A DNA stretch of 64,000 nucleotides from Jejuia pallidilutea. GTDB lineage: Bacteria > Bacteroidota > Bacteroidia > Flavobacteriales > Flavobacteriaceae. Positions 156 to 31,424 of this stretch are shown piece after piece. The position numbers and the translations under genes are program-made. The notes beneath the pieces are model-generated. The model was not told where the DNA came from. It saw only the letters and a list, made by a program, of their open reading frames with translations, and made no database searches. The stretch spans positions 1 to 64,000 of the forward strand of contig NZ_PVEO01000006.1 in NCBI RefSeq assembly GCF_002973595.1, written 5' to 3'. How positions within the stretch are numbered: the stretch's first letter is position 1; every line of letters starts with the position of its first letter.

Positions 156-2306
156 CTATTTCTGGGATATATTTAACAATCTATCGCATTTACTAAAGCT
201 AATACCACTCTTATAGTTTATGTTTTTCAGAACTTCTTTTTCGTCAACCTTATTTAGCCAATCTATATAAACTTTTGCTATGTTAGCTCCTGCTTCATGA
301 GAGAACGGATATCCGCCACCAAACCTAAGGTTTAATTCTAAAATATACAATGTATCGTTTACCAAAAAAGCATCTACATCCATATTGCCAATATGTTTTA
401 GATGGCTTCCTAATATTTGTCCAACCTCATCAAAAGCAGGTTTAATAACAGATTCTGCTTTATCTGTCTCTCCAGATCTCATAGCTAGTTTTTCCCTAGC
501 AAAGGTGCCAAAATAGTTACCTTCAAAATCATTCACTACATCTAAGCCAAATTCTACACCTTCAATTTTTTCTTGAATTAATATAGCATTATTAATATCT
601 TTTTCACTGGCATTTTTAAGTATGGATCTTTTTAGTTTTAATTTTTGTAGTTTATAGCTTAGAAGCAGTTCATCTAAAGTTTCAGGTATTTCAATGCCTA
701 TGGATCCACTTCCCCAACGTGGTTTTAATACTAGAGGGAATTTTAAAATACCAGCTTCTATAGCTGCCATAGCTTTATCTAAATCTATGTAAGTTTTGGG
801 GGAATTTAGTCCTATTTCTTCTAAGAATTTGAAGGTCTTCCACTTATCAAAACCAATAGAAATAACCTCTTCACTGGATACAATAACTTTAGTATTTTTA
901 TTTTCAAGTAAATTTTTGTGCTTTGCCAATATTGGTAGTTCTAAATCATTTAAAGAGATGATTGCAGTAACTTTGTAGGTATCAACTATTTCTTTAATTT
1001 TAGAGATGTAACCATCATCGTAAATACTGGGTACTTCTATAGCAATATCGGCATCTATTAGAGCAGGAGCATTTAATTCTTTATCTACAGCTATAATATG
1101 GCCATCACCATGTAATGCTTCTTTAAAATAATTAATTAAATAGTTGCGCCTTCCAGCACACGTAAATAGTATATTTTGTTTCATAGTATTTTTTTCGTCA
1201 ATTGTTTTTTTTCTTTCTCCATAAAGAGGAAAAAATGTTTTAGAATCTTTAATATCATCCAAAGCATTAGTATATTCAACATTAATTTCGTTGATTAAAC
1301 GGTTGTATATAGGTTGGTTAATTATTTTTCTCCCTGTGTAAAAAACGTCATCCTTATCTAAAGGGAAAAACGATTTTTTGTAATGATATAAACCGTCTCC
1401 ATTTACTCTACCACCACCCAAAACATAATATTTTTTTTTGTGTTCTATGGCCCATTTCATAACTTCAATCTTTAAGAAGTCGTTAGGTCTCATGTTAAAG
1501 TATTCAGCATGAGTGCCTCCTAAATGCGAATACAACGTATCATTATCAATTAAAATAAGTTCAGCAGAAATAGCCACGTCATCTTTAAATATTAATACCA
1601 GTATTGTATCGTCTGGATTGTTATTTATTAAATTTTCAAAATAAAATTTCGTGTAATAATAATTGGTTGCGGCGTTATTTCTATTTAGCGATTTTATATA
1701 AATATCGTGAAACTTTTCAATGCTATCTGAATCAATATTTTCAGTATATATTTTGGCTTTTAAATTGTATTTTAGGGATTTACGATAGTTGTTTCTAACT
1801 TTTTGTTTAAAGTTTGTCCATAATGTTTCAAAATCTACTAATTCTCCTTTTACGTTATCTAACGTAGGTATTAAATGCCCAGTGTAGTGTTTGTAGTTTT
1901 CGCACAAGTTAAAACGAATGAATTCTGTGACCACATTATTACTTTTGTACCATTGATCTACCTTATTCCAAAAAAATAAGTTTTCTTCTTTGGAATTTAA
2001 TGCACAGAAAAGCGGACCGCCATATCCGTAAGGCGATGAAGCATCAAAATAATCAGAATCGCTAGTGTTGCATGTGCCGTAATCATTTATTTTTTTTAAA
2101 TAAATAGGCATAAAGGCAATTAAAGTATCTTCTCTTAAAAGTATAAAATAGATAAAGTTTTTTTGTGCAAGGGAACTTATATACTCATGAGAATAAAATA
2201 TATTGGCATTTTTAATTTTGCTTAGATTCTGTTTGTAAATAGATATATCGGCTTCATTTTTAACCTTAATACACCCAAATTTATATTTGTCTTCTATTAA
2301 TTGCAT
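156..2306 (-). CDS. FemAB/GNAT-like N-acyltransferase fused to an ATP-grasp ligase
   Basis: The 716-residue protein has two parts. Residues 1-374 look like a FemAB/GNAT-type acyltransferase (PF13480-like), with SPYGYGGPL at 91-99, a basic RNNYRKSLK at 171-179 and LGGGRVNGDGLYHYKKSF at 296-313, the glycine-rich end typical of this group. Residues 375-716 form an ATP-grasp enzyme of the carbamoyl-phosphate-synthase-like type: FTCAGRRNYL (381-390), FPLVLKPRWGSGSIG (523-537, Lys528 as likely ATP ligand) and LELNLRFGGG (656-665, metal-binding Glu and Asn). Met375 begins exactly where free-standing ATP-grasp proteins of this type begin, so this looks like two genes joined in frame. It is the last gene of the operon. 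The likely role is joining an amino or acyl group to a sugar or carrier, with ATP used for activation. The substrate is unknown. Confidence 0.75.
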   Translation of the reverse strand: MQLIEDKYKFGCIKVKNEADISIYKQNLSKIKNANIFYSHEYISSLAQKNFIYFILLREDTLIAFMPIYLKKINDYGTCNTSDSDYFDASSPYGYGGPLFCALNSKEENLFFWNKVDQWYKSNNVVTEFIRFNLCENYKHYTGHLIPTLDNVKGELVDFETLWTNFKQKVRNNYRKSLKYNLKAKIYTENIDSDSIEKFHDIYIKSLNRNNAATNYYYTKFYFENLINNNPDDTILVLIFKDDVAISAELILIDNDTLYSHLGGTHAEYFNMRPNDFLKIEVMKWAIEHKKKYYVLGGGRVNGDGLYHYKKSFFPLDKDDVFYTGRKIINQPIYNRLINEINVEYTNALDDIKDSKTFFPLYGERKKTIDEKNTMKQNILFTCAGRRNYLINYFKEALHGDGHIIAVDKELNAPALIDADIAIEVPSIYDDGYISKIKEIVDTYKVTAIISLNDLELPILAKHKNLLENKNTKVIVSSEEVISIGFDKWKTFKFLEEIGLNSPKTYIDLDKAMAAIEAGILKFPLVLKPRWGSGSIGIEIPETLDELLLSYKLQKLKLKRSILKNASEKDINNAILIQEKIEGVEFGLDVVNDFEGNYFGTFAREKLAMRSGETDKAESVIKPAFDEVGQILGSHLKHIGNMDVDAFLVNDTLYILELNLRFGGGYPFSHEAGANIAKVYIDWLNKVDEKEVLKNINYKSGISFSKCDRLLNISQK

Positions 2307-2314
2307 TGCTCTAT

Positions 2315-2583
2315 TTATGTAGATTTTATTGTTCTTGTAAACACAGGCATATTAGTGCCTAAGCTGTTGTTTAGCCCAGTTGGGGTTATAGTTCGATTAA
2401 TAGTTGGAAAAATAATTTCAAACAATTTTTCGTTTTTTTCAGGACGTTGCTGAAAGAAAAATGGCTTCTCATTATTAGTTGTCATTCCGCAAATAATTAT
2501 CATAATAAAAATAGGTATAATAATAGGAAAACTATTATTGCCGACAGAAAATTAAATATTCGTTTAATGCTTTGATGCTTCAT
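2315..2583 (-). pseudogene. Decayed pglC-like sugar transferase remnant
   Basis: From an ATG at 2583 the first frame reads KHQSIKRIFNFLSAI and then a hydrophobic stretch, like the N terminus of the intact PglC at 3249-3863 (YQSFFKRLLDLLAAI). It stops at a TGA near 2501. A shift of frame near 2510-2520 restores the family sequence: PIFIMIII, then KPFFFQQRPEKNEKLFEII, matching PFFVQKRPGKDEKIFSIV in the intact paralogue. After that the similarity fades, and the catalytic Asp-Glu, PRPL and PGITG motifs are all missing before the stop at 2315. It is therefore frameshifted and truncated. It sits directly upstream of the FemAB/ATP-grasp gene and is read in the same direction. Confidence 0.7.
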
Positions 2584-2662
2584 TAAAGTAAAGGTAAAGT
2601 AGGCTTTAATAATTGCCTATATTTTACGTTTAAACGTTATTATTTTTGATGAGCCACATTTT

Positions 2663-3271
2663 TTATTTATCTAATTTTTCAAGGTGTAGTTTTTCAATTT
2701 CTGAAATAGTTTTTAAAACTATTTTTTTTCCTTTTTTAGCAAATTTGGGGTAAAGTGTTTCAAAGTTATCATTTTTGCTCACTTTAATGGCACGTTGGCA
2801 AAGAATAATACCTTCATCTACCTTATCGTCAATTATATGGGTTGTAATTCCTGTTATTTTTACACCATAATCCAGGGCATCTTGTATAGCAGTTTTGGTG
2901 GCTAAAAAACTTGGGAATAACGACGGGTGAATGTTAATGATTTTATTGGGAAATGCTTTCAACATCGGTTCTTTTATGATGTATTTAAAATTTAGCATAA
3001 AAATATAATCGATGTTTCTTTTTTTTATTTCTAGGGTTAACTGTTCCTGATAGCTCAACAAGTTTGGGAAATTTCGCTTAATTAGCTGCAAAGTTTCTAT
3101 ACCATGTTTTTCGGCATAATCTTTAGCGCCACAAGGTTCTTCCTCATAAATAACCAAATTTATAGTGGAGTTGGCCAATTTTCCTTTGGTGTAAGCTTTA
3201 ATAGTGTCTTTTGCGTTTCTTCCCCAACCGGTTACTAAAATAGCCCATTTAATGTTTTGATCTAATTGCAT
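2663..3271 (-). CDS. PurN-like formyltransferase, probable sugar N-formyltransferase
   Basis: The 202-residue protein belongs to the formyltransferase family (PF00551), which uses N10-formyl-tetrahydrofolate. The N-terminal VTGWGRNAKD (13-22) corresponds to the nucleotide/substrate-binding loop. The catalytic Asn-x-His is NIHPSLFPS (Asn113, His115), and the conserved Asp is in DDKVDEG (Asp152). It is close to the length of PurN (about 212). The context argues against purine synthesis: the gene starts inside the 3' end of pglC (23-nt overlap, so probably coupled translation) and lies in a glycan operon. In the bacillosamine pathway the gene beside pglC is usually the acetyltransferase pglD, so a 4-amino-sugar N-formyl transfer is a reasonable inference. 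The exact acceptor cannot be read from the sequence. Confidence 0.75.
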   Translation of the reverse strand: MQLDQNIKWAILVTGWGRNAKDTIKAYTKGKLANSTINLVIYEEEPCGAKDYAEKHGIETLQLIKRNFPNLLSYQEQLTLEIKKRNIDYIFMLNFKYIIKEPMLKAFPNKIINIHPSLFPSFLATKTAIQDALDYGVKITGITTHIIDDKVDEGIILCQRAIKVSKNDNFETLYPKFAKKGKKIVLKTISEIEKLHLEKLDK

Positions 3272-3863
3272 CTAAATCTTGAATAACTGAATTTGGATTT
3301 ACCACTACATCTTTTGAAGTGATTACTTTTTGAATGGTTTTTATAAAAATTTTAAAATCTAAACTAAAACTTAAATGTTCAACATATTCAATATCTTTAC
3401 TTAGTCTATCGTTCCAGTTTAATATATTTCTTCCAGAGATTTGAGCTAAACCTGTAATACCAGGCCTAATTGAATGTCTTTTTTTCTCTGTTTTAGAGTA
3501 GTAGGGTAGGTACCTAATTAAAAGTGGCCTAGGCCCTATAAAACTCATATCGCCTTTTATAATATTTATAAGTTGTGGCAGCTCATCTAATGATGTTTTT
3601 CTTACCAGTTTGCCAATAGCGGTTAAACGTTCACCATCCGGTAACAAATTTCCATTTTTGTCTGTCTTATCAGTCATCGTTTTAAATTTTACGATACTGA
3701 ATATTTTTTCGTCCTTTCCTGGGCGTTTTTGTACAAAAAAGGGCGTGCCTTTATTTGCTACAGCTAATATGAATAGCAAAATTATAAAAATAGGCGACAC
3801 CATAAACAACGCAAATATAGCTGCCAAAAGGTCTAGTAATCGCTTAAAAAAGGATTGATACAT
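3249..3863 (-). CDS. pglC: Phosphoglycosyl transferase, PglC-like
   Basis: A 204-residue monotopic membrane enzyme of the bacterial sugar transferase family (PF02397). It moves a sugar-1-phosphate from a UDP-sugar to undecaprenyl phosphate. The N-terminal hydrophobic helix carries Ser23-Pro24, the break that makes the re-entrant membrane helix in Campylobacter PglC. The catalytic dyad is Asp93-Glu94 in SLDELPQL, the same numbering as in that enzyme. Also present are KFKTM (59-63), GDMSF, GPRPLL (110-115) and RPGITGLAQISGRN (133-146). The length also matches PglC (about 200). Its likely donor is the UDP-diamino-trideoxy sugar made by PglF and PglE encoded at 30-33 kb. It lies between the carrier-protein gene (24-nt gap) and the formyltransferase gene. 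Confidence 0.85.
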   Translation of the reverse strand: MYQSFFKRLLDLLAAIFALFMVSPIFIILLFILAVANKGTPFFVQKRPGKDEKIFSIVKFKTMTDKTDKNGNLLPDGERLTAIGKLVRKTSLDELPQLINIIKGDMSFIGPRPLLIRYLPYYSKTEKKRHSIRPGITGLAQISGRNILNWNDRLSKDIEYVEHLSFSLDFKIFIKTIQKVITSKDVVVNPNSVIQDLDAIRSKH

Positions 3864-3887
3864 TATACAATATAAGGTTATTTATGT

Positions 3888-4142
3888 TTAGCTATGTATT
3901 GCATTTAGTTCTTTATCAATAGCTTTTATTAAATCTCCTACGGTATCCATATTCATTAAATCCATAAGTTTGAATTTGATATTAAAGGATTTTTCAATAT
4001 CGCTAATAATCATCATGTGCGTTATAGATTCCCATCCATCTACATCATTAGCCGTAGTCGATTCAGTTAAAGTAAAATTATTGTGCTCTAAAACTCTGCT
4101 AAAAGATGTGGTAACCTTGTTTAAAATGTCTTGGTTTTTCAT
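3888..4142 (-). CDS. Acyl carrier protein
   Basis: An 84-residue acidic four-helix carrier protein (PP-binding family). The phosphopantetheine attachment site is Ser39 in VDGWESITHM, a form of the usual DSL motif with Glu before the serine. It overlaps the adenylation-enzyme gene by 4 nt (ATGA), so the two are translationally coupled and most likely work together: the enzyme activates an acid and loads it on this carrier, as DltA loads DltC. The receiving acyltransferase is probably one of the GNAT-like products nearby (5695-6792 or 156-2306). It is not the fatty-acid ACP, since it sits in a glycan operon. Confidence 0.85.
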   Translation of the reverse strand: MKNQDILNKVTTSFSRVLEHNNFTLTESTTANDVDGWESITHMMIISDIEKSFNIKFKLMDLMNMDTVGDLIKAIDKELNAIHS

Positions 4143-5629
4143 GAGTAAAATGTGTTTCGTAATTGTTTTCTATCTATTTTGCCATTAATGCTGTGAGGGA
4201 TATTGTCAATAAATCGTATTTGTGTAGGCACCATATAATTGGGCAATTTTTCTTTTAAATAATTTATGATGTGTTCATACTTAAAAGTATCAGATTCTAT
4301 GATTAAATATAATTCATTATTACCAGAACTATTATCAATATCCAATACTACAAAATTATGATTTGTAATTACCTTTTTAACATGGTATTCAACTTCACCT
4401 AGCTCAACCCTATACCCTCTAATTTTCACCTGGAAATCAGCTCTTCCCACATACAGATAGTCGCCATCTTCATCTTTTATACATAAATCGCCTGTTTTAT
4501 AAAACCGTTCATTACTACCGTTTATGTCATAATAGAAGAAACTAGACTTATTTTTTTCTTCATTATTCCAATAACCGGGAGTTATTTGAGGACCTGCCAA
4601 ACAAAGTTCTCCTGGTATGCCAATGGGTACTTCTTTGTTTTGTTTATCAACAACAAGATATAAGGTGTCTTTTTGTGGTGTACCAATAGATATAACACCA
4701 TTGTATGCTTTAGTATGATTTTCTTTGTGGTAAGGATAAAAACCACTATACACAGTGAATTCTGTTGGGCCGTAGTAATTAAATATTTTACAATTAGGAA
4801 GACAATCGCTCCATGCTTTAGCAATATCTTCATGTAGGGCACCACCTCCAAAACTACAATATCTAACCGATGTAGCATTAATTTCTGGGAAGTATGGGCG
4901 TAAATAGTTAATAATGGAGGGCACCATTGTAAGTACTGTAAGGTGTTGTTCTTGAAGCAGTTTAAAAATATAAAAGTATTTTATCTTTCCTTTGGGAATA
5001 GTATAGATACAAGATCCTGCTAAAAAAGGAAATAGATATGTGACTACAGAAAAATCAAAAGTTAACTCAAACATCTGTAGGCATTTGTCTGTATTATTCA
5101 GATTAAATGTTGGTTCTGCATCAATAGCATTTACTAAAGCTTGCACATTATTAAAGGTAATGGGAACGCCTTTGGGTACACCCGTAGTTCCTGAGGTAAA
5201 TAGTATATATGCTAATGCTTCACCATCTACACTTTTAGGGGTTAAATTTATGTTTGCATTTTGTTTTTCTCTCGTATTAATAACATTGAAGTTATCGTAT
5301 ACATTGGTAGTTGAAGAATTTAAAATATATTTGGTTTCGGTAAGTCTAAATATTTCTAAATTTCTTTCTAGAGGAAATTCTGGGTTAACAGGAACGTAAG
5401 CTTTACCTTCTAACCATAACGCTATAATTGATGCATAGGTTTCAATATCATCATTTGTAACTAAACCTATAAGCTTTTCTTCAAATGGAATTGTGTTTTC
5501 AATAGCGTGCCTTATGTTGCTTATACATAGGGCAAATGTTTTGTAAGAGTAGTACCGATTATTAATAAATAACGCATTGCAATCTTGGTTATGCAATATA
5601 GATTCAGTTATTTTTTTTATGTAATCCAT
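4139..5629 (-). CDS. Amino-acid adenylation enzyme, DltA-like
   Basis: A 496-residue stand-alone adenylation domain of the ANL superfamily. Core motifs are all present: A3 LFTSGTTGVPKG (143-154), A5 YYGPTE (285-290), A7 YKTGDL (377-382), A8 GRADFQVKIRGYRVELGE (395-412) and the A10 lysine in NGKIDRK (Lys484). The protein should use ATP to make an acyl-adenylate and pass it to the phosphopantetheine arm of the carrier encoded directly after it. The size and the lack of condensation or thioesterase domains fit a DltA-like single-module loader. The substrate, perhaps an amino acid, cannot be predicted with confidence. The inference is amino-acyl or acyl decoration of the polysaccharide. Confidence 0.85.
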   Translation of the reverse strand: MDYIKKITESILHNQDCNALFINNRYYSYKTFALCISNIRHAIENTIPFEEKLIGLVTNDDIETYASIIALWLEGKAYVPVNPEFPLERNLEIFRLTETKYILNSSTTNVYDNFNVINTREKQNANINLTPKSVDGEALAYILFTSGTTGVPKGVPITFNNVQALVNAIDAEPTFNLNNTDKCLQMFELTFDFSVVTYLFPFLAGSCIYTIPKGKIKYFYIFKLLQEQHLTVLTMVPSIINYLRPYFPEINATSVRYCSFGGGALHEDIAKAWSDCLPNCKIFNYYGPTEFTVYSGFYPYHKENHTKAYNGVISIGTPQKDTLYLVVDKQNKEVPIGIPGELCLAGPQITPGYWNNEEKNKSSFFYYDINGSNERFYKTGDLCIKDEDGDYLYVGRADFQVKIRGYRVELGEVEYHVKKVITNHNFVVLDIDNSSGNNELYLIIESDTFKYEHIINYLKEKLPNYMVPTQIRFIDNIPHSINGKIDRKQLRNTFYS

Positions 5630-5694
5630 TTGAAATTTAAATTTTAAATATCGACGCTTTTTTTAAAAATTCATTGCTTCTAAAGCAGCCAATA

Positions 5695-6792
5695 CTAGGC
5701 AAAATTTCCATCCCTATCATTAATAACAGCATTTTCAAAATCAATATTCATAGCGTTATGTGCTAGGGCATAAAGTTTACGCTTATCTGTATACAGGTTA
5801 ACAAATTTCTTTTTAATATACTTTCCAAGAGTTTCATTTTCAGTTTGCAGGTTTGTTGCTTTTGTTTGTATAACATTTTCCATTAAAGCATCTGCACATG
5901 CTTCTAAATACTCGTCTTTAACTATAAAGTAACGCACCATGGCTTCTTTTCCTCTTACTAAGAATGAAGTGAAACCAATTATATGCCCTTCTTTTTTTAT
6001 AATGTAGCTTATGTTGTAAACCCTTTTGTAAATAGTACTTAGCAAACAATTATGAGGGTATTTATCTCGAATAGGTGCATTTGTATATTGGTTATTATCT
6101 ATTTGCCAACTAATATATGCTTTAGATTTAGGTATGAGGTCTTTCTCGCAAAACGGACTTAAAAATTGCCAAAGATTTTCGTCTATACATGATACGTACT
6201 CGTAAGTAAGAGGTTTTGTGTTTTTCTTTGTTTTAAAAGCATTAAAAACCGATACAAAACTTAGCGAAACACTATCTATAGCTTTTACTACTCCTTTTAT
6301 ATGTTTAAGACTACTAATTTTACTTAAAAGAATATTAGCATCTAAATTAAAAATAATATAATAACGTGTTCTATGGGCAAACTCTGTAAAAGGTTGTTTT
6401 CTATAGTACGCTTCAATGTCTTTTCCAAGAAATTTCACCACTGCTTTGTTATTTACAGCATTCATAGCAATACTCATGGTATAGGTGGGTAGAATAGAAT
6501 CTTTGTACTTATCTGAAATCCACCAACGTCTACTCCAAAATATTTTTTCGGTTCCAGATTTAGTTTTAATAAAATCTGGGACTAAAAAAATAAAAGAAAT
6601 AACAGTTTGGTTTTCGGTACCTATAATAGCACAAACATCATTATTGTCTATCCTATCATTTCTAAGCACCCAACTCGCTTTACTTTTAGAAAAGGGGATG
6701 TTCTTGGTATCGGTACTCCAATATGTATTATTCGCAATAGCATCGCGCAATTCTTCTTTGGTTAAAGAAGTAATTTTAATATCCTCTCCCAT
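5695..6792 (-). CDS. GNAT-like protein, possible acyltransferase
   Basis: I recognise only the general fold. This 365-residue protein has features of the GNAT/FemAB superfamily: an N-terminal half with FWSRRWWISDKY near residues 85-96, and a C-terminal GNAT-like stretch with YIIKKEGHIIGFTSFLVRG around 263-281. It has no signal peptide or membrane helix and is therefore probably cytoplasmic. It lies 65 bp upstream of the adenylation gene on the same strand. A natural guess is that it takes the acyl group from the carrier protein and places it on a sugar nucleotide or lipid-linked sugar. That function is inferred from the neighbourhood and could be wrong. Confidence 0.5.
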   Translation of the reverse strand: MGEDIKITSLTKEELRDAIANNTYWSTDTKNIPFSKSKASWVLRNDRIDNNDVCAIIGTENQTVISFIFLVPDFIKTKSGTEKIFWSRRWWISDKYKDSILPTYTMSIAMNAVNNKAVVKFLGKDIEAYYRKQPFTEFAHRTRYYIIFNLDANILLSKISSLKHIKGVVKAIDSVSLSFVSVFNAFKTKKNTKPLTYEYVSCIDENLWQFLSPFCEKDLIPKSKAYISWQIDNNQYTNAPIRDKYPHNCLLSTIYKRVYNISYIIKKEGHIIGFTSFLVRGKEAMVRYFIVKDEYLEACADALMENVIQTKATNLQTENETLGKYIKKKFVNLYTDKRKLYALAHNAMNIDFENAVINDRDGNFA

Positions 6793-6868: not shown

Positions 6869-8023
6869 CTACGAAAGGCTATTATATTCTTTAAGAAGGG
6901 CGTTCCAAACTTCTTTACGCTCATAGTTGGCAACAATTAGTTTTCTGGATGCCTTTCCCATGGCTATTGCTGTATCTTTATTCGAATAAATTTCTACCAT
7001 TGCATCATACAATGCTTGTTGGTTTTTTACAGGGATAACAATACCGTTTTCCTTGTTTTGAATAATTTCATTGCAACCGTTAATATTAGAAACAATACTT
7101 ACCAATTCCATAGCAGCAGCCTGCATTACAACATTAGGAAAGCCTTCTCGATAGCTGGGAAAGGTTAGTGCGTTTGCTATAGAGAAGTAGGGTCTAACAT
7201 CATCAACCCAACCCGTAGTTATTATATTTTTATTAGAATTTATTGTAGCTTCAGTTTCAGGCAATAACGGGTCTAGTTCTTTTTCATATCCGCCTACTAA
7301 TAAAAGTTTAATATCGTTATGGGTTTTATTAAGTTTAGAAAAAGCACTTATTAGCTCGTTAAGTCCTTTGTCTGTAACGAGTCTTCCTACAAAAATGAAT
7401 ACAAAATTATTGTTAGGGATATTTAATTTATTTCTTAGATCTTTTTTAAAATCATCAGTAAAAAGCGTAGGGTTGAAATGATTGGTATCTATTCCGTTAG
7501 AACTACCTTTACCTATAACCTTAAGTTTGTTTTTTGAAGTGAATTTTTGCTCTAAAATAATATCTACTAATCCATAGGAATTTGGATAAATTTTAGTTGC
7601 GCAACTATAAGTTATTTTTTCTACAGTGTTAAGTATAAGGCGTTTAAATCCTGTTGCTTCAACTAAAGGTAAACCTGCAATAGTATGTAATCTATGAGGT
7701 ACCCTTGCTAATAAGGCTGCTAACATGCTTAATGTGCCTGCTTTGGGTGTATGGGAATGTACAATAAATGGTTGTTCTTTTTTAAAAATTTTATAGAGTT
7801 TCCAAACCGCTTTAAGATCTTTTATTGGTGTTATTTTTCTTGTCATTTCAACAGGAATAACCCTTACACCTTCGTCGTCATTAATTTTTTGTAAACTGCC
7901 TTTAATTCCTTTGGATGATATGCCAACAACCTCAAAATATTGAGACATGAATTTCAGTTGCCCTGTAAGTAGTCCACCTAAGGATTTAGGAACAGTTGTA
8001 ACTCTAATTATTTTCTTTTTCAT
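6869..8023 (-). CDS. Glycosyltransferase family 4
   Basis: GT-B fold glycosyltransferase, 384 residues from the ATG at 8023. A longer frame reaches 8080, but the ATG at 8023 lies 2 nt after the upstream asnB stop and begins with MKKKIIRVTTVPKSLGG, the usual start of this family, so I chose it. The C-terminal half holds FIFVGRLVTDKGLNEL and the nucleotide-sugar site with the E-x7-E motif in EGFPNVVMQAAAME. It is a cytoplasmic retaining enzyme that probably adds one sugar of the repeat unit. HSHTPKAGTLSMLAA matches GT4 proteins of the EpsD/PglA type. The sugar specificity is unknown. Confidence 0.85.
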   Translation of the reverse strand: MKKKIIRVTTVPKSLGGLLTGQLKFMSQYFEVVGISSKGIKGSLQKINDDEGVRVIPVEMTRKITPIKDLKAVWKLYKIFKKEQPFIVHSHTPKAGTLSMLAALLARVPHRLHTIAGLPLVEATGFKRLILNTVEKITYSCATKIYPNSYGLVDIILEQKFTSKNKLKVIGKGSSNGIDTNHFNPTLFTDDFKKDLRNKLNIPNNNFVFIFVGRLVTDKGLNELISAFSKLNKTHNDIKLLLVGGYEKELDPLLPETEATINSNKNIITTGWVDDVRPYFSIANALTFPSYREGFPNVVMQAAAMELVSIVSNINGCNEIIQNKENGIVIPVKNQQALYDAMVEIYSNKDTAIAMGKASRKLIVANYERKEVWNALLKEYNSLS

Positions 8024-8025
8024 TT

Positions 8026-9936
8026 TTAGAGGCGCTTGTAAATATTGTGGTACCACTTTTGAAAACAATAGAATGTCCACACTTTAAACGTATTATCTTC
8101 TTTTCCTGAAATATGATTTTTAACTAAATTGATAATATTATCTACATGGAAAATGTTTTGATCTATTAATTCGTTTTCAGTAATGTAGCTTTCTAATTCA
8201 GCCCTAAGGCTAGATTTTAACCAATCGCCAACAGGAGCACCAAAACCACTTTTGCTTTTGTCTAGAAAATCTTTAGGAAACTGATCTCTAAATGCTTCCT
8301 TGAGAATATATTTCTTGTTCCAGCCCTTCATTAAAAAATCTTCTGGTAACGTATTGGTATAATTCCAAACCTTTTTATTTAGAAAAGGTGCCCTACATTC
8401 CAAGGAATTTAGCATACTGGTTCTATCTACTTTAACAAGCATGTCGCCTTCAAGACTGGTAACTTTATCAATTAACCTAAAATCGGTTAAGGTTTTAGGG
8501 TGGGTTATACCTGTATCCTTTTTGTAAACATCGAATAAATCATCATTCAAATATTTAGGCAAAAGAAATGCGCCAAGGGTATTTTTTTGAAAGCCCAAGG
8601 ACAAAATATCCCAATAATAATCACCACCGTTATAATCAATAGAATTTAGTAATCTTTTAATTTTAAATCTTTTACCTCTTTTATCGCTAGATGTTTTTAA
8701 TAGAGGAGAAGTAACATTTTTTACAAAACCGTGAAACCCTTTGGGCACTACATTAGTATATTTTGTATTTAATTTGCCAATATAGTATTTGTTGTACCCT
8801 CCAAAAACTTCGTCACCACCATCACCTGTTAATGCAACTTTAACATGATTCTTGGTTCTGTTTGAAACTAAATAGGTTGGGAGTGAAGAGGAATCAGAAA
8901 AGGGCTCATCAAAATTTAATAATATCTTATTTACATCCTCTGCAAGATCTTTTTCGTTAATGATAAATTCGTGGTGATTACTGTTGATGAGTTTTGCTAC
9001 AACTCTAGATTTATCACTTTCATCATAAGATTTTTTTTCAAAACCTATTGAAAACGTATCTATAGGCGTGGAAGAAAATTGCGATAAACATAGGGAAACT
9101 ACCGAGGAATCTACACCTCCAGAAAGAAAGGTGCCAATAGGGACATCAGACACAGCTCTACTGGTAACACTTTCATACATTAAATCTCTTACGTTTTTTT
9201 TAGCTTCATCAAACGAAACATCAATTTTTGGTGTGGCATTATTGGTTTCTTTTTCTATTTGATGGATTGAAAAGGTGTTGTTCTCTACATCATATGCTAT
9301 GTAGTGATTTTGTTTAAGCTTGTGTATGTTTTCATAGATAGTATATGGTGCGGGAATGTAAGTAAGCCTAAAGTATAAATTTAAGCCCTTACTATTTAGT
9401 TGTGGTTTTTTATCTATTACATTAATTACGGACTTAAGCTCTGAAGCCCAAATAAATTGAGTGTCGCTCTTGTAATAATACAATGGTTTTTCACCAAAAA
9501 AGTCTCTAGCTATGTATACTTTGTTTTTGTTTTTATCGTAGATGCTAAAACCAAACATACCATCAAGCTCTTTAAATGCGTCTACCCCAAATTTTTCGTA
9601 GAGTTTTAAAATAACTTCGGTATCACTGGTGGTGTTAAACGTTACCCCTAGTTTTTTTAGTTTTTCTTTTAGCTCACGATAATTATATATTTCACCATTA
9701 AAAACAATAACGATGCTTTTATCATCAGAAAAAATGGGTTGTTTACCAGAACTTAAATCGATAATAGAGAGTCTTCTCATAGCCATACCCAAGGTTGAGG
9801 ATGCTGTATTCTCGCAAAAAAAGCCATCTTCATCTGGCCCTCGGTGAAAGATTAAATCATTCATTTTTGAGAGAAGCCCTTTTACCTTTTGTTCGTTTTG
9901 GTTATGTAATGCTATATAGCCGTTAATTCCGCACAT
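8026..9936 (-). CDS. asnB: Glutamine-dependent asparagine synthase-like amidotransferase
   Basis: A 636-residue protein with an N-terminal class II glutaminase (nucleophile Cys2 in MCGINGY; RRLSIIDL at 54-61; FNGEIYNY at 79-86) and a C-terminal synthetase domain with the ATP pyrophosphatase loop SGGVDSS (272-278) and GDGGDEVFGGY. It releases ammonia from glutamine and uses ATP to amidate a carboxylate. In O-antigen loci, members such as WbpS are thought to amidate uronic acids. UDP-uronic acid genes at 23.6-27.3 kb make that likely here. A second, distinct copy lies at 12134-13972. The gene overlaps the neighbouring glycosyltransferase gene by 14 nt. Confidence 0.9.
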   Translation of the reverse strand: MCGINGYIALHNQNEQKVKGLLSKMNDLIFHRGPDEDGFFCENTASSTLGMAMRRLSIIDLSSGKQPIFSDDKSIVIVFNGEIYNYRELKEKLKKLGVTFNTTSDTEVILKLYEKFGVDAFKELDGMFGFSIYDKNKNKVYIARDFFGEKPLYYYKSDTQFIWASELKSVINVIDKKPQLNSKGLNLYFRLTYIPAPYTIYENIHKLKQNHYIAYDVENNTFSIHQIEKETNNATPKIDVSFDEAKKNVRDLMYESVTSRAVSDVPIGTFLSGGVDSSVVSLCLSQFSSTPIDTFSIGFEKKSYDESDKSRVVAKLINSNHHEFIINEKDLAEDVNKILLNFDEPFSDSSSLPTYLVSNRTKNHVKVALTGDGGDEVFGGYNKYYIGKLNTKYTNVVPKGFHGFVKNVTSPLLKTSSDKRGKRFKIKRLLNSIDYNGGDYYWDILSLGFQKNTLGAFLLPKYLNDDLFDVYKKDTGITHPKTLTDFRLIDKVTSLEGDMLVKVDRTSMLNSLECRAPFLNKKVWNYTNTLPEDFLMKGWNKKYILKEAFRDQFPKDFLDKSKSGFGAPVGDWLKSSLRAELESYITENELIDQNIFHVDNIINLVKNHISGKEDNTFKVWTFYCFQKWYHNIYKRL

Positions 9937-11088: not shown

Positions 11089-12147
11089 TTAAGTAAATAG
11101 TGCTTCGTATTGTTTAATAATGGTTTCTTCGTTAAATTTTGTGGCAACAGATGCTCTTATATCTTTAGGTTTCAAAGATAATCTATTGTTTAAATAGTGA
11201 AGATATTCTTCTTCGTTTTCCACTAAATATCCGTTAACTTGATGCTGTAGTATTTCTTTAGTCCCTCCGGGTACGTTAAATGCTAAAACAGGTGTGCCTA
11301 CAAAGCAACTTTCTAAAACTGTATTTGGAAAACCTTCAACATAGGACCCTTGAAGGAAGAGGTCGCTTTCAGAAATATACTTTGAGACGTCTTTAGTAAA
11401 TGGTATTTGTGTTATACTATCCCTTAAGTTATAGCGTTCTATAGCGTCATTAATTTTTTCTTTATAAGGGCCATCACCAATTATAGTGTAATGAAAATTA
11501 AAATTTAGCTTAGCAAGTAGTTTTAAAACTCTTAGTTGCCCTTTTTCTTTGCTCAACCTGCCCACAGTAATAAACTTAACAACACCATCATTATTTTTAG
11601 TGCTGTTTTTTAAAGCAATAGACTGTGTTATGGGGTTGTTTATTATTGTAATTTTATGTTCTGGAATGTTAAACATATCTATAAAATCTTTTGCCATATC
11701 TTTGGATTGACACACTACCATATCAATCTGTTTGTAGGCTTTAAGGGCTAAAGTTGAATACATACTTTTATGTTCAGATTGATTGTGTATTTTACTCATT
11801 TGCGATACCACACTTGCTTCTCTTATAATAAATGTTGTTTTCTTAAAAACCGGTGCCATTAGCCCCATTACGGTATTTAAATGCCCTATGGAACTTAGCA
11901 CATAATCTGGCTTATTTTTTAGTAAAAAAAAGAAAATACTGGGAACTGCTGTAAACACTCTGCTTTTTTCTAGGAATTTTACACGTATGCCTTTAATTGC
12001 ATAGGCAGCATCTTTTTTGTAACCAGTAACTAGTAGGGTACTCTCAAATTTAGCATTGTTTATGTTTTGAGCAACAAAAGACATAACACGTTCTGCGCCA
12101 CCAGCCGTTAGCGTAGGTAATACAAAGAGTACTTTAGTTTTTTTCAT
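11089..12147 (-). CDS. Glycosyltransferase family 4
   Basis: GT-B enzyme of 352 residues from the ATG at 12147. The open frame reaches 12198, and an ATG at 12153 two codons earlier is equally possible, but the family start KKTKVLFVLPTLTAGGAERV supports this region. The start overlaps the end of the upstream asnB by about 14 nt. The donor domain shows FITVGRLSKEKGQLRVL and the E-x7-E motif in EGFPNTVLESCFVG. The N-terminal LTAGGAERV loop is typical of GT4 enzymes that extend undecaprenyl-linked glycans. It probably adds a sugar of the repeat unit, and its specificity cannot be told from sequence. Confidence 0.85.
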   Translation of the reverse strand: MKKTKVLFVLPTLTAGGAERVMSFVAQNINNAKFESTLLVTGYKKDAAYAIKGIRVKFLEKSRVFTAVPSIFFFLLKNKPDYVLSSIGHLNTVMGLMAPVFKKTTFIIREASVVSQMSKIHNQSEHKSMYSTLALKAYKQIDMVVCQSKDMAKDFIDMFNIPEHKITIINNPITQSIALKNSTKNNDGVVKFITVGRLSKEKGQLRVLKLLAKLNFNFHYTIIGDGPYKEKINDAIERYNLRDSITQIPFTKDVSKYISESDLFLQGSYVEGFPNTVLESCFVGTPVLAFNVPGGTKEILQHQVNGYLVENEEEYLHYLNNRLSLKPKDIRASVATKFNEETIIKQYEALFT

Positions 12148-13972
12148 ATTCATTTTTTGGGTAAAAACCAAACTCTTCATACCATTTTCGCAAAACATAT
12201 AATTTCCAAACGTTAGTTTTAAAATCAGCTTTACCTGTCATATGATCACTTAAGCGCTGCTTAAATTTTTTAATATCTAAATTTGGTACAAAATTTAAAA
12301 AGTCATCATCTAAATTTAACATTATTTCTTCTTTTAGTTCATTTCTCATCCATTTGCCTAGTGGAATACTAAACCCTTTTTTGGGTTGATCAAAAACTTC
12401 TTCTGGTATGTACTCACTCAAAATATCTCTTAGTATTTTTTTTCTAACACCATTCCTAAACCTATAATTAACGGGTAAAGTTCTTGCTTTTTCTACTACT
12501 CTGTAGTCTAAAAATGGACTTCTAACCTCAACAGAATAAGCCATACTTGCTCTATCAACTTTAACATTACTATCATTTTCAAGCCATAATTTTATATTTA
12601 AATCTGCTGCCCGTTGTAAAAAATGCGTAGCAGTTTTCTTAAAATTAGTATAATGTTTAAGCCATTCAGTAAATCTATTTTTTTGGAAGCTATCGTATCC
12701 TGTAAAATGGCCTATGATGTATTGATTAATATCTTTTGTAACAAATAATTTTTCAGGTATAGCTTTTTGGGTCAATATTCTAATCAATGACAGGCCTTTA
12801 ATCTTTATTATGAGTTTTCTTAAAGATATAGGCAATAGAAAAATTATTTTATTTTTTTTCAAAAAGGAGAAGTAGTTATAACCCAAGAAACTTTCGTCAC
12901 CCCCATCACCAGAAAGCGCTACAGTTACATGTTGTTTGGTTACAGAGTTTAACAATAACGATGGTAAACCTGAACTGTCTGCAAAGGGTTCGTCATAAAC
13001 TTCAATGTATTTAGGTATCATATTTAATACATCTTCAATTTTACACATAATTGTGGTGTGGTTTGTTTTTAAAAACCCTGCATATTGCTCTGCTACTTTG
13101 CTTTCGTCATACTTAGGATCTTCAAAGCCAATTGAGAAAGTATTTATTTTGTTTTTGGATATTTCTGCAGCAATTCCAGATACTAACGCCGAATCAATAC
13201 CTCCTGACAAAAAGGATCCAATAGGTACATCTGATCTTAATCTTATTTTTACCGCATCTCTTAATAGGTCGTGGACTTGCTGTTTAGCTTCTTCATAAGA
13301 GGCTTTAGTTAATTTAACTTCTTTTAGGTCCCAAAATGCATGTGTAGTTAATTGATTTTTATTCAAATCAATCACCATGTAATTTCCTGGTGGAAGTTTG
13401 TAAACATGTTCTATGGCAGAGTATGGGCTAGGGATATAACCTGTGTCTAGATATATACTTATTGCTTTGTTATTTACAGTGCTTTTTTCATTAATTAACG
13501 GTCTTAATTGGCTGCAAATTTCAAATTTACCATCATTCCAATAATAATAAAATGGTTTTACACCCAATCTATCTCTTGAAGAAAAAATGGTGTTTTTTTC
13601 TTTGTCGTATATAGAGAAGGCAAACATACCATTCGTTTTGTCTAAAACATATTTGCCCCATTCATAATATCCTTTTAGTAATACTTCAGTGTCGCTTTCG
13701 GTCTCAAATTCATAACCCAGATTTACCAGTTCATCTTTTATATCTTCATAGTTATATATTTCTCCATTGTACGTAAGGGATAAGTTTTTATAGATCATAG
13801 GTTGATTCGATCTAATATTTAAATCAAGAATGGAAAGTCTTAAATGCCCTAAAGTAATATTATTAATTTTAGTTACTCCAATATTATCAGGACCTCTAAA
13901 ATTAATTTCTCTTAATTTCTTTTTAATTCTATCTTCTTTATAATCTATATTGGTTATATATATGCCACACAT
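12134..13972 (-). CDS. asnB: Second asparagine synthase-like amidotransferase
   Basis: A 612-residue glutamine-dependent amidotransferase with the same two-domain layout as the paralogue at 8026-9936: nucleophile Cys2 (MCGIYIT), NFRGPDNIG (24-32), LRLSILDL (44-51), YNGEIYNY (68-75), and synthetase loop SGGIDSA (256-262) with SGDGGDESFLGYN. The two differ throughout, so this is an old paralogue or a separate acquisition, not a recent duplicate. It likely amidates a carboxyl group on a different sugar or intermediate. Asparagine biosynthesis is less likely given its place between the polymerase-like gene (8-nt gap) and a GT4 gene. Confidence 0.88.
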   Translation of the reverse strand: MCGIYITNIDYKEDRIKKKLREINFRGPDNIGVTKINNITLGHLRLSILDLNIRSNQPMIYKNLSLTYNGEIYNYEDIKDELVNLGYEFETESDTEVLLKGYYEWGKYVLDKTNGMFAFSIYDKEKNTIFSSRDRLGVKPFYYYWNDGKFEICSQLRPLINEKSTVNNKAISIYLDTGYIPSPYSAIEHVYKLPPGNYMVIDLNKNQLTTHAFWDLKEVKLTKASYEEAKQQVHDLLRDAVKIRLRSDVPIGSFLSGGIDSALVSGIAAEISKNKINTFSIGFEDPKYDESKVAEQYAGFLKTNHTTIMCKIEDVLNMIPKYIEVYDEPFADSSGLPSLLLNSVTKQHVTVALSGDGGDESFLGYNYFSFLKKNKIIFLLPISLRKLIIKIKGLSLIRILTQKAIPEKLFVTKDINQYIIGHFTGYDSFQKNRFTEWLKHYTNFKKTATHFLQRAADLNIKLWLENDSNVKVDRASMAYSVEVRSPFLDYRVVEKARTLPVNYRFRNGVRKKILRDILSEYIPEEVFDQPKKGFSIPLGKWMRNELKEEIMLNLDDDFLNFVPNLDIKKFKQRLSDHMTGKADFKTNVWKLYVLRKWYEEFGFYPKNEYEKN

Positions 13973-13980
13973 AAGTTTTT

Positions 13981-15111
13981 TTAGGTTAATTGAGTTGTTA
14001 AGGTTACTTCTTCAGTTTTGAAATTATCTTTTAGTGCTTTAATTTGATATTGTATCCACATGGCTGTTATAGGAAAAACATGATGATAAAAGAAGCCATG
14101 ATCTGCCATTAGGACAGCTACCAATCCAATGGTCATCATAAATAAATGCGGAGCTTTATCAAAATACCTATAAGAATAAATTAATAAATAAATAAAATAA
14201 AATGTGAAAATTAAAAATGCTATTATCCCTGCTTCACCCATTACCATTAAAAAAGAATTATGAACGCCAACACCAGCACTAGCAATATGACCACCTTGAA
14301 AGAAATGATACCCATTTCCAAAAAAAGGTTTGTCATAAATTTTATCATAATATAGGCTCCAAGTATCTGCCCTAGAATCTTGAGTTAATCCTTTTGCCGC
14401 AGTTTTGTCATTGTTTATTAGTGCTTCAAATTCATTTATTCTTTTTGTGTTTAGCTGTAACACTTCCTTCGTAGAAAAAATGAATATAACCACGGCTATC
14501 CCGTAAATAAATATCTTCACATTTTTTATACTAATCTTAACTGATAGTAAATTTAAAAGTACCCATAATACTACAAATGTCCTAGAAAAGGTCATTAAGC
14601 CACCAACACTAGAAACTAGTGTTTTACTAGTCTTTATCAAACCTTTCTGATAATAAAAAGTTAGAGCAAAAGATATTATTGCTATAAAACCAGCAGAGTT
14701 TGGGTTAAAATAAAAGCCGCTATACCTGCCATAGTCATTAGCAAAAAGTATAGGATGTAAAATGACGGTAAGAGATCCGATGGCAAAAAAATATGAAAAC
14801 TCCCTTACTGAAGTGTTCTTCACTAGTTCATATCCCGTGATTACTATAATAAAAAATTTAATCGCTAAAAATGCAAACTCTTTAAGTGGCCACTGACTTT
14901 GAAAACTAGAAATCAAGTAATAGGAAACTGCAATTAATAGCATTGGTTTATTTAGTGCTCCTCTTTCTCTTAAAAATAAATAATAAATTATGAGCAATAA
15001 GAAGACAGCATAACTTGATATTGTACCCATGGCAGAACCTAAATTTCTAACGATTACTTCAGGAATGTTCAATACGATTAGTGCTAATATGATATATTTT
15101 AAAATTTTCAT
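13981..15111 (-). CDS. O-antigen polymerase/ligase-like membrane protein
   Basis: A 376-residue inner-membrane protein with about ten hydrophobic helices, including clusters near residues 5-50, 70-110, 125-150 and 290-345. It matches the Wzy_C/O-antigen ligase family: the periplasmic loop contains DSRADTWSLYYDKIYDKP, then FGNGYHFFQGG, and GVHNSFLMVMGEAGI, where the His-Asn and following Leu form the family signature. In this locus, which also has Wzx and Wzc, it is probably the Wzy polymerase that joins repeat units on the periplasmic side. A WaaL-type ligase cannot be excluded, since the two families look alike. Its stop is 8 nt from the asnB start. Confidence 0.75.
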   Translation of the reverse strand: MKILKYIILALIVLNIPEVIVRNLGSAMGTISSYAVFLLLIIYYLFLRERGALNKPMLLIAVSYYLISSFQSQWPLKEFAFLAIKFFIIVITGYELVKNTSVREFSYFFAIGSLTVILHPILFANDYGRYSGFYFNPNSAGFIAIISFALTFYYQKGLIKTSKTLVSSVGGLMTFSRTFVVLWVLLNLLSVKISIKNVKIFIYGIAVVIFIFSTKEVLQLNTKRINEFEALINNDKTAAKGLTQDSRADTWSLYYDKIYDKPFFGNGYHFFQGGHIASAGVGVHNSFLMVMGEAGIIAFLIFTFYFIYLLIYSYRYFDKAPHLFMMTIGLVAVLMADHGFFYHHVFPITAMWIQYQIKALKDNFKTEEVTLTTQLT

Positions 15112-15115
15112 ATCA

Positions 15116-16204
15116 TCAAATTAAATCTTTTATTAAGAATTCCCATTTTTTGCTCACCTCGTCTACATGGTACTGTTTAGATTTTTCTTTAGCATATTTT
15201 GAAAAGTTATACCTTAATTTTTCATCGTTAATTAATAAATTTAATTTTTTGTGTAATAGGTCGAAGTCATCAACAGGTACTAAGTATCCATTTCTACCTT
15301 CATCAATCAATTCAGAAGGGCCTGATGGACAATTTGTTGAAACACATGGTAAACCAAAATATAAAGCTTCAATTAACGCATTGGGAAAACCTTCTGATTT
15401 AGACGTAAAAGCAAATATTTTAGCTCTATTATAATAATAATCAGGATTGTTTATTCTACCAGTAAATATTACTCTATCATATATATTTAGCTTTTTAGCT
15501 AAGGCTTCATATTCGGTTCGTTTATTACCATCCCCAACTAAAACAAGTTTCCAATCGGTTAAGTTCAATTTAGAAAAAGCCTTGAGTAGGGTGTCTTGAG
15601 ATTTATTTTCGTCTAATCTAGCAACGTATAAAATGATGTTTTCTTTTTTCACGTAAGAGTCTCTTTTTTCCGTTAAATCCTTGGAGAGAGGATTTGGTAA
15701 AACCTTTAATTTGTCTTTTTTTATAAATGCGTAAAACTGTTTACTTAGTTGAGTTTGTACTACTAAGTAATTACATAACGGATATGTTAAATACCTAATT
15801 GTTTTCCAAAACCAATTTAATTGGTTTACATATGGATTAGATCTATCACTTATAATACAAGGTATTTTGTTAGACTTAGCGCTTAGTACAGTTAGTATAT
15901 TGCTAGTGGTTGTAAATCCAATTAAACAATCAATTTTGTTGTTTTTTGTATAGGATGAAATTACGTTATAGGTTTTGTAATTATTTTTAAATGCTTGATA
16001 AAGGTTTGTACTTTTTAGTAAGTACTCTGAACAATTATGAATAATTATTCTTTCATCCACATTGTATAATATATTACTTTCTTTATATAAAAGTATTAAA
16101 TGTATATTGTATTTACATATTAGTTTGTTAGCTAAAGAAACCACAACGCGTTCTGCTCCCCCCGGACCCAAACTAGGAATTACAAAACCTATTTTTTTTT
16201 TCAT
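15116..16204 (-). CDS. Glycosyltransferase family 4
   Basis: A 362-residue GT-B enzyme that starts KKKIGFVIPSLGPGGAERV, the family's N-terminal loop. IISDRSNPYVNQLNWFWK in the middle of the acceptor domain resembles the GT4 enzymes of the PglJ/PglH type. The donor half has LYVARLDENKSQDTLL and the E-x7-E motif in EGFPNALIEALYFG, then CPSGPSELIDEGRNGYLV. It lies 4 nt after its upstream GT2 neighbour and 4 nt before the polymerase-like gene. The sugar and linkage are unknown. Confidence 0.87.
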   Translation of the reverse strand: MKKKIGFVIPSLGPGGAERVVVSLANKLICKYNIHLILLYKESNILYNVDERIIIHNCSEYLLKSTNLYQAFKNNYKTYNVISSYTKNNKIDCLIGFTTTSNILTVLSAKSNKIPCIISDRSNPYVNQLNWFWKTIRYLTYPLCNYLVVQTQLSKQFYAFIKKDKLKVLPNPLSKDLTEKRDSYVKKENIILYVARLDENKSQDTLLKAFSKLNLTDWKLVLVGDGNKRTEYEALAKKLNIYDRVIFTGRINNPDYYYNRAKIFAFTSKSEGFPNALIEALYFGLPCVSTNCPSGPSELIDEGRNGYLVPVDDFDLLHKKLNLLINDEKLRYNFSKYAKEKSKQYHVDEVSKKWEFLIKDLI

Positions 16205-16208
16205 CTCT

Positions 16209-17147
16209 TTAGTTTTGATAAATTTTTAATATTAATTGAAATAATTTAACAGGTAAAATCTTTGCAAGTCTTAATTGTAAATATTTATTTGCTAAATGAT
16301 AATTCTTTTCTATAATAGATTTTAATTTTTTTCTATGTCTGTAATCATCGTCTAAATTATTGTTGATATTTAATAACTTATAGTTATACAATACGATTTC
16401 TAATAAAAAATCTAAGGCTATTTGTTTTAGTTCTTCATCTTTTTCTTGATTTCTTACCATATCTTCAAGATGCAGTGCAGCATCTACAGTATCTAAAGTT
16501 TTTAGTCTATAACCACCACGTGTTATACTTACTCCACCTATAAAATAGTTATACAAAGGAGCACTTGTATAGGCTATTTTATTTATGTTTTTAAAAACGT
16601 CTAGAGTAAAATAAACATCTTCAGAATTTTTCCCTTCAACAAAAGTTATATCTTCAATAATTTTCTTTTTATAAAGCCTTCTCCAAACGGAGAATTGTTG
16701 ATTAGTAATAATTCGTTTTAAGGCACTTAACCGGTCTTCAATATTTAATTTGCCATGGCGATTTATATTGTCTTCAACGTCTAAGGATTTTAAAATACCA
16801 CATTCCACAACATCAATATTTTCGTTTTGGATTAAATTCATCATTCTTTCAAACATATCGTATTCAATCCAGTCGTCACTATCAACAAAACCTACAAATT
16901 CTCCAGTTGCTCTTTTTAATCCAGAGTTTCTCGCTCCACTTAAGCCTTTATTCTTTTGGTGAATTACTAAAATCCTATCATCCTTTGAAGCATAATCATC
17001 ACATATCTCGCCTGAATTATCAGTTGCACCATCGTTTATTAGTATAATTTCTAAATTAGTATAGGTTTGATTAAGAATAGAATGCATACACCTGTGCAAA
17101 TATTGTTCGACGTTGTAAACGGGTATAATGATGCTGATTTTTTGCAT
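16209..17147 (-). CDS. Glycosyltransferase family 2
   Basis: A 312-residue inverting GT-A enzyme. The start ISIIIPVYNVEQYLHRCMHS and ILINDGATDNSGEICDDYA are the nucleotide-binding region. GFVDSDDWIEYDMF contains the D-x-D type metal site at about residues 93-97. The C-terminal third, with the conserved Trp in FSVWRRLYKK and EDVYFTLDVF, is the EpsJ-like form common in capsule clusters. It lies 4 nt after wzx. It probably adds one sugar to the lipid-linked repeat unit at the cytoplasmic membrane face. Confidence 0.87.
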   Translation of the reverse strand: MQKISIIIPVYNVEQYLHRCMHSILNQTYTNLEIILINDGATDNSGEICDDYASKDDRILVIHQKNKGLSGARNSGLKRATGEFVGFVDSDDWIEYDMFERMMNLIQNENIDVVECGILKSLDVEDNINRHGKLNIEDRLSALKRIITNQQFSVWRRLYKKKIIEDITFVEGKNSEDVYFTLDVFKNINKIAYTSAPLYNYFIGGVSITRGGYRLKTLDTVDAALHLEDMVRNQEKDEELKQIALDFLLEIVLYNYKLLNINNNLDDDYRHRKKLKSIIEKNYHLANKYLQLRLAKILPVKLFQLILKIYQN

Positions 17148-17151
17148 TTTA

Positions 17152-31400: not shown

Positions 31401-31424
31401 CATACATATTTAAAACTCTCACTT

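Follow-up and report, generated by a model that had tools for sequence, protein, structure and literature searches.

A conserved unit of adenylation enzyme, carrier protein and GNAT-like protein in a surface-polysaccharide cluster of the marine flavobacterium Jejuia pallidilutea

Contig 6 of Jejuia pallidilutea, a marine flavobacterium with a 4.11-Mb genome in 34 contigs, begins with a 64,000-base stretch (the window) that includes part of a surface-polysaccharide cluster within which a compact series of minus-strand genes is found (Table 1). Their order is GT1, GNATx, an adenylation enzyme, a carrier protein, PglC, a PurN-like formyltransferase, a broken second PglC and a protein in which a FemAB-like domain is fused to an ATP-grasp domain. 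The tightest unit of the locus consists of GNATx, the adenylation enzyme and the carrier, and its probable role is to link an amino acid to a sugar. Pfam and NCBIfam scans, together with the sequence, confirm that every gene named between 156 and 6792 by an earlier, sequence-only reading is in its place on the minus strand. The details of the loading pair are equally sound: the adenylation and carrier genes do overlap by 4 nt (ATGA), the Ser39 site of the carrier is confirmed, and the adenylation enzyme has, by eye, the motifs that we take to be A3, A4, A5, A7, A8 and A10.

Table 1. Coordinates of the features described in the text, with the basis of each assignment
Feature	Position	Strand	Basis
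GNATx (twin GNAT, N-myristoyltransferase-like fold; presumed transferase; C-terminal tail DGxFx)	5695-6792	-	AlphaFold2 model, Foldseek
Stand-alone amino-acid adenylation enzyme (putative loader), pocket code DFVTSGYVYK, mosaic gene	4139-5629	-	AMP-binding E 6e-55
Part of the adenylation gene coding for the pocket-bearing core domain, closer to Flaviramulus L016 than to H. pacifica	4381-5580	-	ten consecutive 120-base steps
Carrier protein, Ser39 in DGWESIT	3888-4142	-	PP-binding E 1.7e-5; PDB 2lml E 1.3e-14
PglC-type phosphoglycosyl transferase	3249-3863	-	Bac_transf E 5e-58
PurN-like formyltransferase, variable neighbour	2663-3271	-	Formyl_trans_N E 3e-32
Remnant of a second PglC (pieces in two frames, middle gone)	about 2324-2583	-	tblastn with intact H. 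pacifica gene
FemAB-like (FemX fold) domain fused to PylC/L-amino-acid-ligase-like ATP-grasp domain	156-2306	-	Pfam/NCBIfam, model and Foldseek
Glycosyltransferase-like GT1, upstream of the unit	6869-8080	-	label from sequence look only
Wzy-like polymerase	13981-15111	-	PF04932
Glycosyltransferase-like proteins	within 13981-18693	-	labels from sequence look
Wzx-like protein	17152-18693	-	label from sequence look; no Pfam match
MBOAT and following 307-residue protein (SGNH type by look)	27504-29828	+	MBOAT PF03062; 307-residue protein without Pfam match
DegT aminotransferase	30240-31400	+	PF01041 E 1e-85
PglF-like dehydratase	31425-33386	+	PF02719 E 6e-119

A pattern scan with the adenylation enzyme over a collection of 84,980 species gave 71 loci. 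GNATx lies beside the enzyme in 53 of them and an MBOAT shortly downstream in nine; the other nine were tallied as having neither, two of which (L062 and L071) have an MBOAT slightly further along. A second search was started from GNATx so as not to begin with the enzyme, adjacency being read from coordinates and gene maps, and it returned 25 matches in 23 of 397 family genomes. Among the 22 strong matches (E <= 1e-115), the adenylation gene is adjacent in 21 and the carrier adjacent or shared in all 22; the one exception, at L125, has only a carrier beside it. The three weaker family matches comprise a GNATx-FkbH-ACP set in G380 (ACP, acyl carrier protein) and two without loader or carrier in the fetched stretch. 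Five matches came from 395 phylum genomes, three of them weak and with no carrier seen. Weak matches whose fetched stretches hold no loader or carrier (the second copy of G072, and G224, G594, G659 and G711) were set aside. Within the genus, GNATx and the adenylation enzyme occur in the same four of 12 genomes, the window's own included. Viewed from the enzyme, GNATx is directly upstream in 68 of 88 places (matches above 400 bits, some from repeated records), with the carrier next in 67 of those. These counts dispose of the chance association that the sequence-only reading had held out against itself: the genes are kept together across genomes, and we conclude that GNATx, adenylation enzyme and carrier are one functional unit, real and conserved.

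At L119 the unit is partly duplicated, in the order GNATx, adenylation enzyme, GNATx, adenylation enzyme, carrier. At L166 an FkbH loader replaces the adenylation enzyme, giving GNATx-FkbH-ACP (FkbH model 297.9 bits, cut-off 146.65). FkbH is a HAD-type loader of glyceryl groups, not an adenylation enzyme; the likeness to FkbH-ACP loading modules is that of a loader-carrier pair, which stands beside GNATx at L166 and beside an MBOAT at L117. Taken together, L166 and the FkbH-ACP-MBOAT set of L117 suggest that the carrier can be served by different loaders and different transferases. The L117 set (13610-17943) comes straight after an adenylation enzyme-ACP-MBOAT set. Extending the search for FkbH-type GNATx turned up no further example: among 395 order genomes the only matches were in the window's own genome and in G220, each with an adenylation enzyme, and among five genus genomes the only one was in G380 itself.

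GNATx has no Pfam match over cut-off and nothing in NCBIfam or PHROGs, and its profile found no credible match among PDB sequences (best E 0.55). Its AlphaFold2 model, made from 47 sequences (pLDDT 90.7, pTM 0.88), is matched by Foldseek to N-myristoyltransferases, a Kribbella GNAT and VipF, with E values down to 3e-11, TM about 0.5 and identities of 10-14% among the 50 matches listed. By this likeness to N-myristoyltransferase and twin-GNAT structures, the protein has the fold of the GNAT superfamily. The chain ends in DGxFx in 66 of 69 distinct relatives and in DGxYx in two, while the FkbH-linked one differs. The C-terminal carboxylate of N-myristoyltransferase is catalytic, so the GNATx tail may be catalytic too. 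We presume GNATx to be a transferase, and none of the libraries searched has a name for its family.

The adenylation enzyme scores 302.4 bits against the amino-acid adenylation model TIGR01733, slightly under its cut-off of 317.4. Ten pocket positions were read by homology and counted over 96 rows, some from repeated records, and Asp and Lys occupy the two ends of the code in 96/96. Because the pocket keeps this Asp and Lys of amino-acid enzymes, fatty-acid loading of the carrier, the outcome that the sequence-only reading had named as fatal to it, appears unlikely. The ACP models that match the carrier are general and all below cut-off, which would suit a fatty or hydroxy acid destined for lipid or lipopolysaccharide synthesis; an enzyme of amino-acid type stands against this, as does the lack of any ketosynthase or reductase among the seven scanned proteins of 156-6792 (the rest of the window was partly scanned), and we hold this explanation to be highly improbable.

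The 72 GNATx-linked codes are mostly DFVTSGYVYK (52, the window included), followed by DATK[IV]GHVCK (8), which marks one clade and is close to what we take to be the Asp code, DFVVCGSVTK (4), DMVTSAYIYK (3), DFVSSGYIYK (3), DMVICAYIYK (1) and DLVLMCVIYK (1). The four genus loci have four different codes: DFVTSGYVYK in the window, DMVICAYIYK in H. pacifica, DFVVCGSVTK in G773 and DATKVGHVCK in G781. The sixth position, presumably that of PheA 301, is Cys in 14 of 17 MBOAT-linked rows versus one of 72 GNATx-linked rows. Most of the MBOAT-linked rows resemble the Clostridial DLMVLCTCAK (L075 and L076, where enzymes are followed by an MBOAT), whereas the window enzyme has Gly in place of this Dlt-type Cys. 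In the enzyme tree, 22 GNATx-linked rows and L042 form a clade with support 99.

The window unit shares with DltA/DltC of teichoic acid D-alanylation (PMC3783018) and with the Gram-negative dra locus (PMC4448142), as far as the parts of these reports considered here go, a stand-alone amino-acid adenylation enzyme and a separate small carrier next to it. It differs from both in its low DltA score (TIGR01734 248.7 bits, cut-off 559.85; NF003417 263.9, cut-off 476), its pocket, and the presence of GNATx in a unit without an MBOAT, none being found among the scanned proteins of 156-6792. A Dlt-like explanation would have the carrier give its amino acid to an MBOAT and a partner that esterify the polymer outside the cytoplasmic membrane, with GNATx as an accessory. 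Such sets do exist in relatives: adenylation enzyme, ACP and MBOAT are followed by an SGNH-like gene (a label from inspection, with weak or no Pfam support) in L056, L058, L116 and L117. GNATx also has an MBOAT as its immediate upstream neighbour in L121 and L164, and at a distance of one gene in L123 and L166. The DltB model recognises both types of MBOAT, at scores under its cut-off (173.3 and 138.8 bits; cut-off 375). However, in the MBOAT tree eight of ten carrier-adjacent rows form one clade (96 SH-aLRT) and L062 and L068 a distant pair, and the four MBOATs of the window's own genome (one at 27504 in the window, on the other strand, two on contig 2 and one on contig 7) belong to neither; the window copy is row L108, outside the main clade. 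In relatives an MBOAT adjoins the FemAB gene; its counterpart in this genome lies where contig 2 begins and has orthologues of at least 74% identity in eight of 12 genus genomes (itself counted), four of them without the unit. Membership in the Dlt system is ruled out by the DltA model score, the pocket, the MBOAT tree and the genus distribution. The MBOATs near GNATx and the DltB-model matches lead us to rate delivery from the carrier to an MBOAT as unlikely rather than to dismiss it.

Two SGNH-MBOAT pairs and a gene resembling CapK/PaaK, which scores under the model cut-offs, are found at the start of contig 2 (L128:96-6492). In H. pacifica the FemAB gene is followed by pairs of this kind, and the starts of contigs 2 and 6 are therefore probably joined.

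The adenylation gene itself is a mosaic. Identity between the window and H. pacifica is 70% for GNATx, 85% for the carrier, 80% for GT1 and 80% for PglC, as against 39%, 70%, 67% and 54% with Flaviramulus L016. The adenylation core reverses this order, with 54% identity to H. pacifica versus 78% to L016, and the lid restores it (71% versus 54%). Of 169 informative residues, those siding with H. pacifica number 24/139 before and 24/30 after a break at residues 408-411, a contrast that 0/5000 permutations reach; the A8 motif starts at residue 395. Base identity delimits the same block, at about 4381-5580. Trees place the substrate-choosing core with Flaviramulus and Aquimarina (L016, L051 and L044; 100/99), rejecting a clade of window and H. 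pacifica (p 0.018), and the lid and GNATx with Hyunsoonleella. For GNATx, window and H. pacifica group at 99/95, and window with L016 is rejected (p 9e-99). The lid (Asub) tree rejects window with L016 at p 0.0055; it has 91 columns only and little resolution, its tests lying between 0.005 and 0.025. G773 looks like a second case of core exchange: its core goes with L061/L060 (100/99; core with H. pacifica rejected, p 0.001) and its GNATx with window and H. pacifica (97/95), and a lid with L061/L060 is rejected (p 0.0245), but this lid is a long branch. Since the groups were named after quick trees had been seen, all these tree-test p values flatter the result. The pattern suggests that the core was swapped in from other bacteria, lid and GNATx being kept. 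Natural core exchange is known in the adenylation domains of non-ribosomal peptide synthetases, where, in the part of that report used here (PMC9205934), the pocket-bearing core is likewise replaced and the remainder kept; the window enzyme, by contrast, belongs to no assembly line and is a loader that stands alone among polysaccharide genes. Among the papers listed from the open-access literature, no core exchange in a stand-alone adenylation enzyme of a polysaccharide locus was found.

Neighbours were counted over the 53 GNATx loci with flanks of at most 10 kb, so that the counts are lower bounds. PglC and FemAB are the usual neighbours, each in 52 loci and PglC in two copies in 49. GT1 relatives above 400 bits occur in 47 loci, MBOATs in 45, FAD/NAD-type proteins in 43, DegT in 28, PglD in 27, CapK-like genes in 27 and PglF in 17. 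The formyltransferase (top NCBIfam model PurN, 126.7 bits, cut-off of 150.1 not reached) has relatives above 200 bits in 12 loci, and the ATP-grasp domain in none at that score, with stand-alone relatives in L119, L122 and L123. The sequence-only reading had listed both among the genes of the module; they prove variable. What stands of its description is that a soluble GNAT is coupled to loading of the DltA kind in a PglC-bearing polysaccharide cluster, an arrangement kept across genomes. The broken second PglC, which that reading does not mention, has an intact H. pacifica counterpart in the same position (L055:13064-13672). At L119:4869-6131 a decarboxylase of the ornithine, diaminopimelate or arginine type adjoins the stand-alone relative of the window ATP-grasp domain, and in L123 a 415-residue gene is likewise placed.

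For both GNAT/FemAB-like proteins named by the sequence-only reading, the GNAT-like protein and the FemAB-like domain of the fusion, structure models bear out the fold. The fusion model (pLDDT 83.2) matches FemX in its first half (TMt about 0.7) and the ATP-grasp structure 2pn1 in its second (TMt 0.87) by Foldseek, and the two halves differ in their nearest relatives. FemAB proteins occur alone or fused with PglD (L060, L061), an FAD-NAD protein (L015), a second FemAB (L055, L161) or, in the window, ATP-grasp; no other FemAB-ATP-grasp fusion is present among the fetched loci. The 715-residue gene of H. pacifica, the nearest relative, was considered as the same fusion and rejected: it joins the same FemAB half to another FemAB domain. 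Rows of four to six adjacent GNAT/FemAB-like genes (about 320-400 residues) lie by GT1 or GNATx at L161:11645-18288, L172:14445-19899 and L124:12050-16768, and could act successively on one glycan.

FemAB figures in two further explanations. The FemAB domain, not GNATx, might take the amino acid from the carrier: its fold is FemX-like, FemAB enzymes transfer amino acids, and it shares the locus in 52 of 53 cases. Yet these enzymes use aminoacyl-tRNA, GNATx rather than FemAB adjoins the enzyme and carrier, and FemAB, besides having variable fusion partners, is absent next to the L035/L162 unit, so that we regard this route as very unlikely. Alternatively, GNATx might acylate the carrier-bound amino acid, for example by N-acetylation, and FemAB, PglD or a glycosyltransferase might move the product to the sugar. 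The GNAT fold suits both reactions, and the near-universal FemAB genes could supply the second step. In L035/L162, however, the stretch fetched with the unit lacks both FemAB and PglC, and there a partner enzyme would need to lie elsewhere; we consider this course of events distinctly unlikely.

The closest printed parallel is the R-group pathway of the Flavobacterium psychrophilum O-antigen (wfpC-G, pglE, pglF, wfpB/PglC), in which an acyl-ACP is predicted to acylate UDP-Qui2NAc4N ahead of PglC (PMC6519341, of which part was used). That cluster also has a dedicated carrier for O-polysaccharide, as the window has its carrier, and its exchangeable R-group genes go with antigenic differences (PMC6519341). 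PglF-like, DegT (PglE family) and PglC proteins are likewise recognised by Pfam within the same 64-kb window, with PglC on the opposite strand; the DegT and PglF-like pair (30240-33386) are candidate makers of UDP-Qui2NAc4N. The two systems differ in the acyl group, which in F. psychrophilum is predicted from ketosynthases and a reductase where the window has an amino-acid adenylation enzyme, and in the transferase, PglD-like there and presumably the twin-GNAT GNATx here (PMC6519341). Pfam gives no PglD match in 156-6792. The sequence-only reading knew of no named system with this layout; a close parallel is in print, in the part of that report considered here, and what is new in the window is a loader of amino-acid type, GNATx as a family and the exchange of the core. 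No described system of such make-up was found among the titles and abstract openings of the open-access literature.

By model names there is also a likeness to the XrtA/PEP-CTERM set, which pairs an acyl-activating ligase (TIGR03098) with a FemAB-like protein (TIGR03019) in a common exopolysaccharide setting; the window proteins score far under cut-off, with 182.4 (592.35) and 51.2 bits (260.35), respectively.

Wza-, Wzc- and Ugd-like proteins, labelled from inspection only, are also present in the window. Two asparagine-synthetase-like genes (8026-9936 and 12134-13972, again labelled by look) lie inside the cluster, and amidation of the glycan is possible. A weak pectate-lyase match, below cut-off, is found on the opposite strand inside the cluster at 20665-22281. 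Near the GT1 of L007 there is a right-handed beta-helix protein.

From the gene identities, unit conservation, folds, mosaic structure and pocket diversity computed here, we infer the loading chemistry, the direction of transfer, the acceptor and the order of steps as follows. The adenylation enzyme would activate an amino acid with ATP and load it onto the 4'-phosphopantetheine of the carrier. GNATx would then move the aminoacyl group from the carrier to a cytoplasmic amino-sugar precursor, most likely a 4-amino sugar nucleotide, e.g. UDP-Qui2NAc4N from the PglF/DegT pair of the cluster. PglC would place the decorated sugar on undecaprenyl phosphate, and machinery of the Wzx/Wzy type would build the polymer, to which FemAB, ATP-grasp and formyltransferase may contribute further strain-specific groups. 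Lastly, the amino acid would change over evolution by exchange of the core domain, with lid, carrier and GNATx staying in place. We favour, with moderate confidence, the proposal that aminoacyl-ACP feeds GNATx for glycan decoration; the naming of UDP-Qui2NAc4N as the acceptor is tentative and rather doubtful.

Several observations weigh against this mechanism. A TM of about 0.5 sets the fold class of GNATx, not its activity, and GNATx has no sequence relative with known function; it could act on the carrier-bound amino acid instead of the sugar. At L125:1960-3338, GNATx overlaps the carrier with no adenylation enzyme of its own between, an adenylation enzyme-ACP-MBOAT set of Dlt type lying a few genes upstream. 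The clade of GNATx-linked enzymes is not a strict one: L042 falls inside it with no GNATx in its 4-kb contig, and L165 pairs GNATx with an enzyme of Dlt-type code and core, so that the tie between GNATx and enzyme type is strong, not absolute. The exchange for FkbH beside GNATx is seen at one locus, L166. The makers of the presumed acceptor are far from constant (DegT and PglF counts above, within the limits of the flanks), and MBOATs are frequent near GNATx, even directly before it.

Our verdict is that the unit would represent carrier-dependent sugar acylation with an amino-acid loader, a transferase family unnamed in the libraries and an unusual mode of change. A bolder proposal, possible rather than probable, is that GNATx founds an undescribed family of aminoacyl-carrier:sugar transferases, that a single type of carrier can be combined with either loader (adenylation enzyme or FkbH) and either transferase (GNATx or MBOAT), and that recombination confined to the core, breaking close to the A8 hinge, changes which amino acid is displayed and hence a surface antigen or phage receptor. 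If the mechanism is right, amino-acid selection of the non-ribosomal type is linked to surface-polysaccharide chemistry by a compact, self-contained unit that includes a new family of transferases. The core exchange, with four codes in one genus, would make a ready system for asking how stand-alone adenylation enzymes change specificity with the carrier kept, and the unit would provide a genetic handle on the amino-acid groups of marine bacterial polysaccharides.

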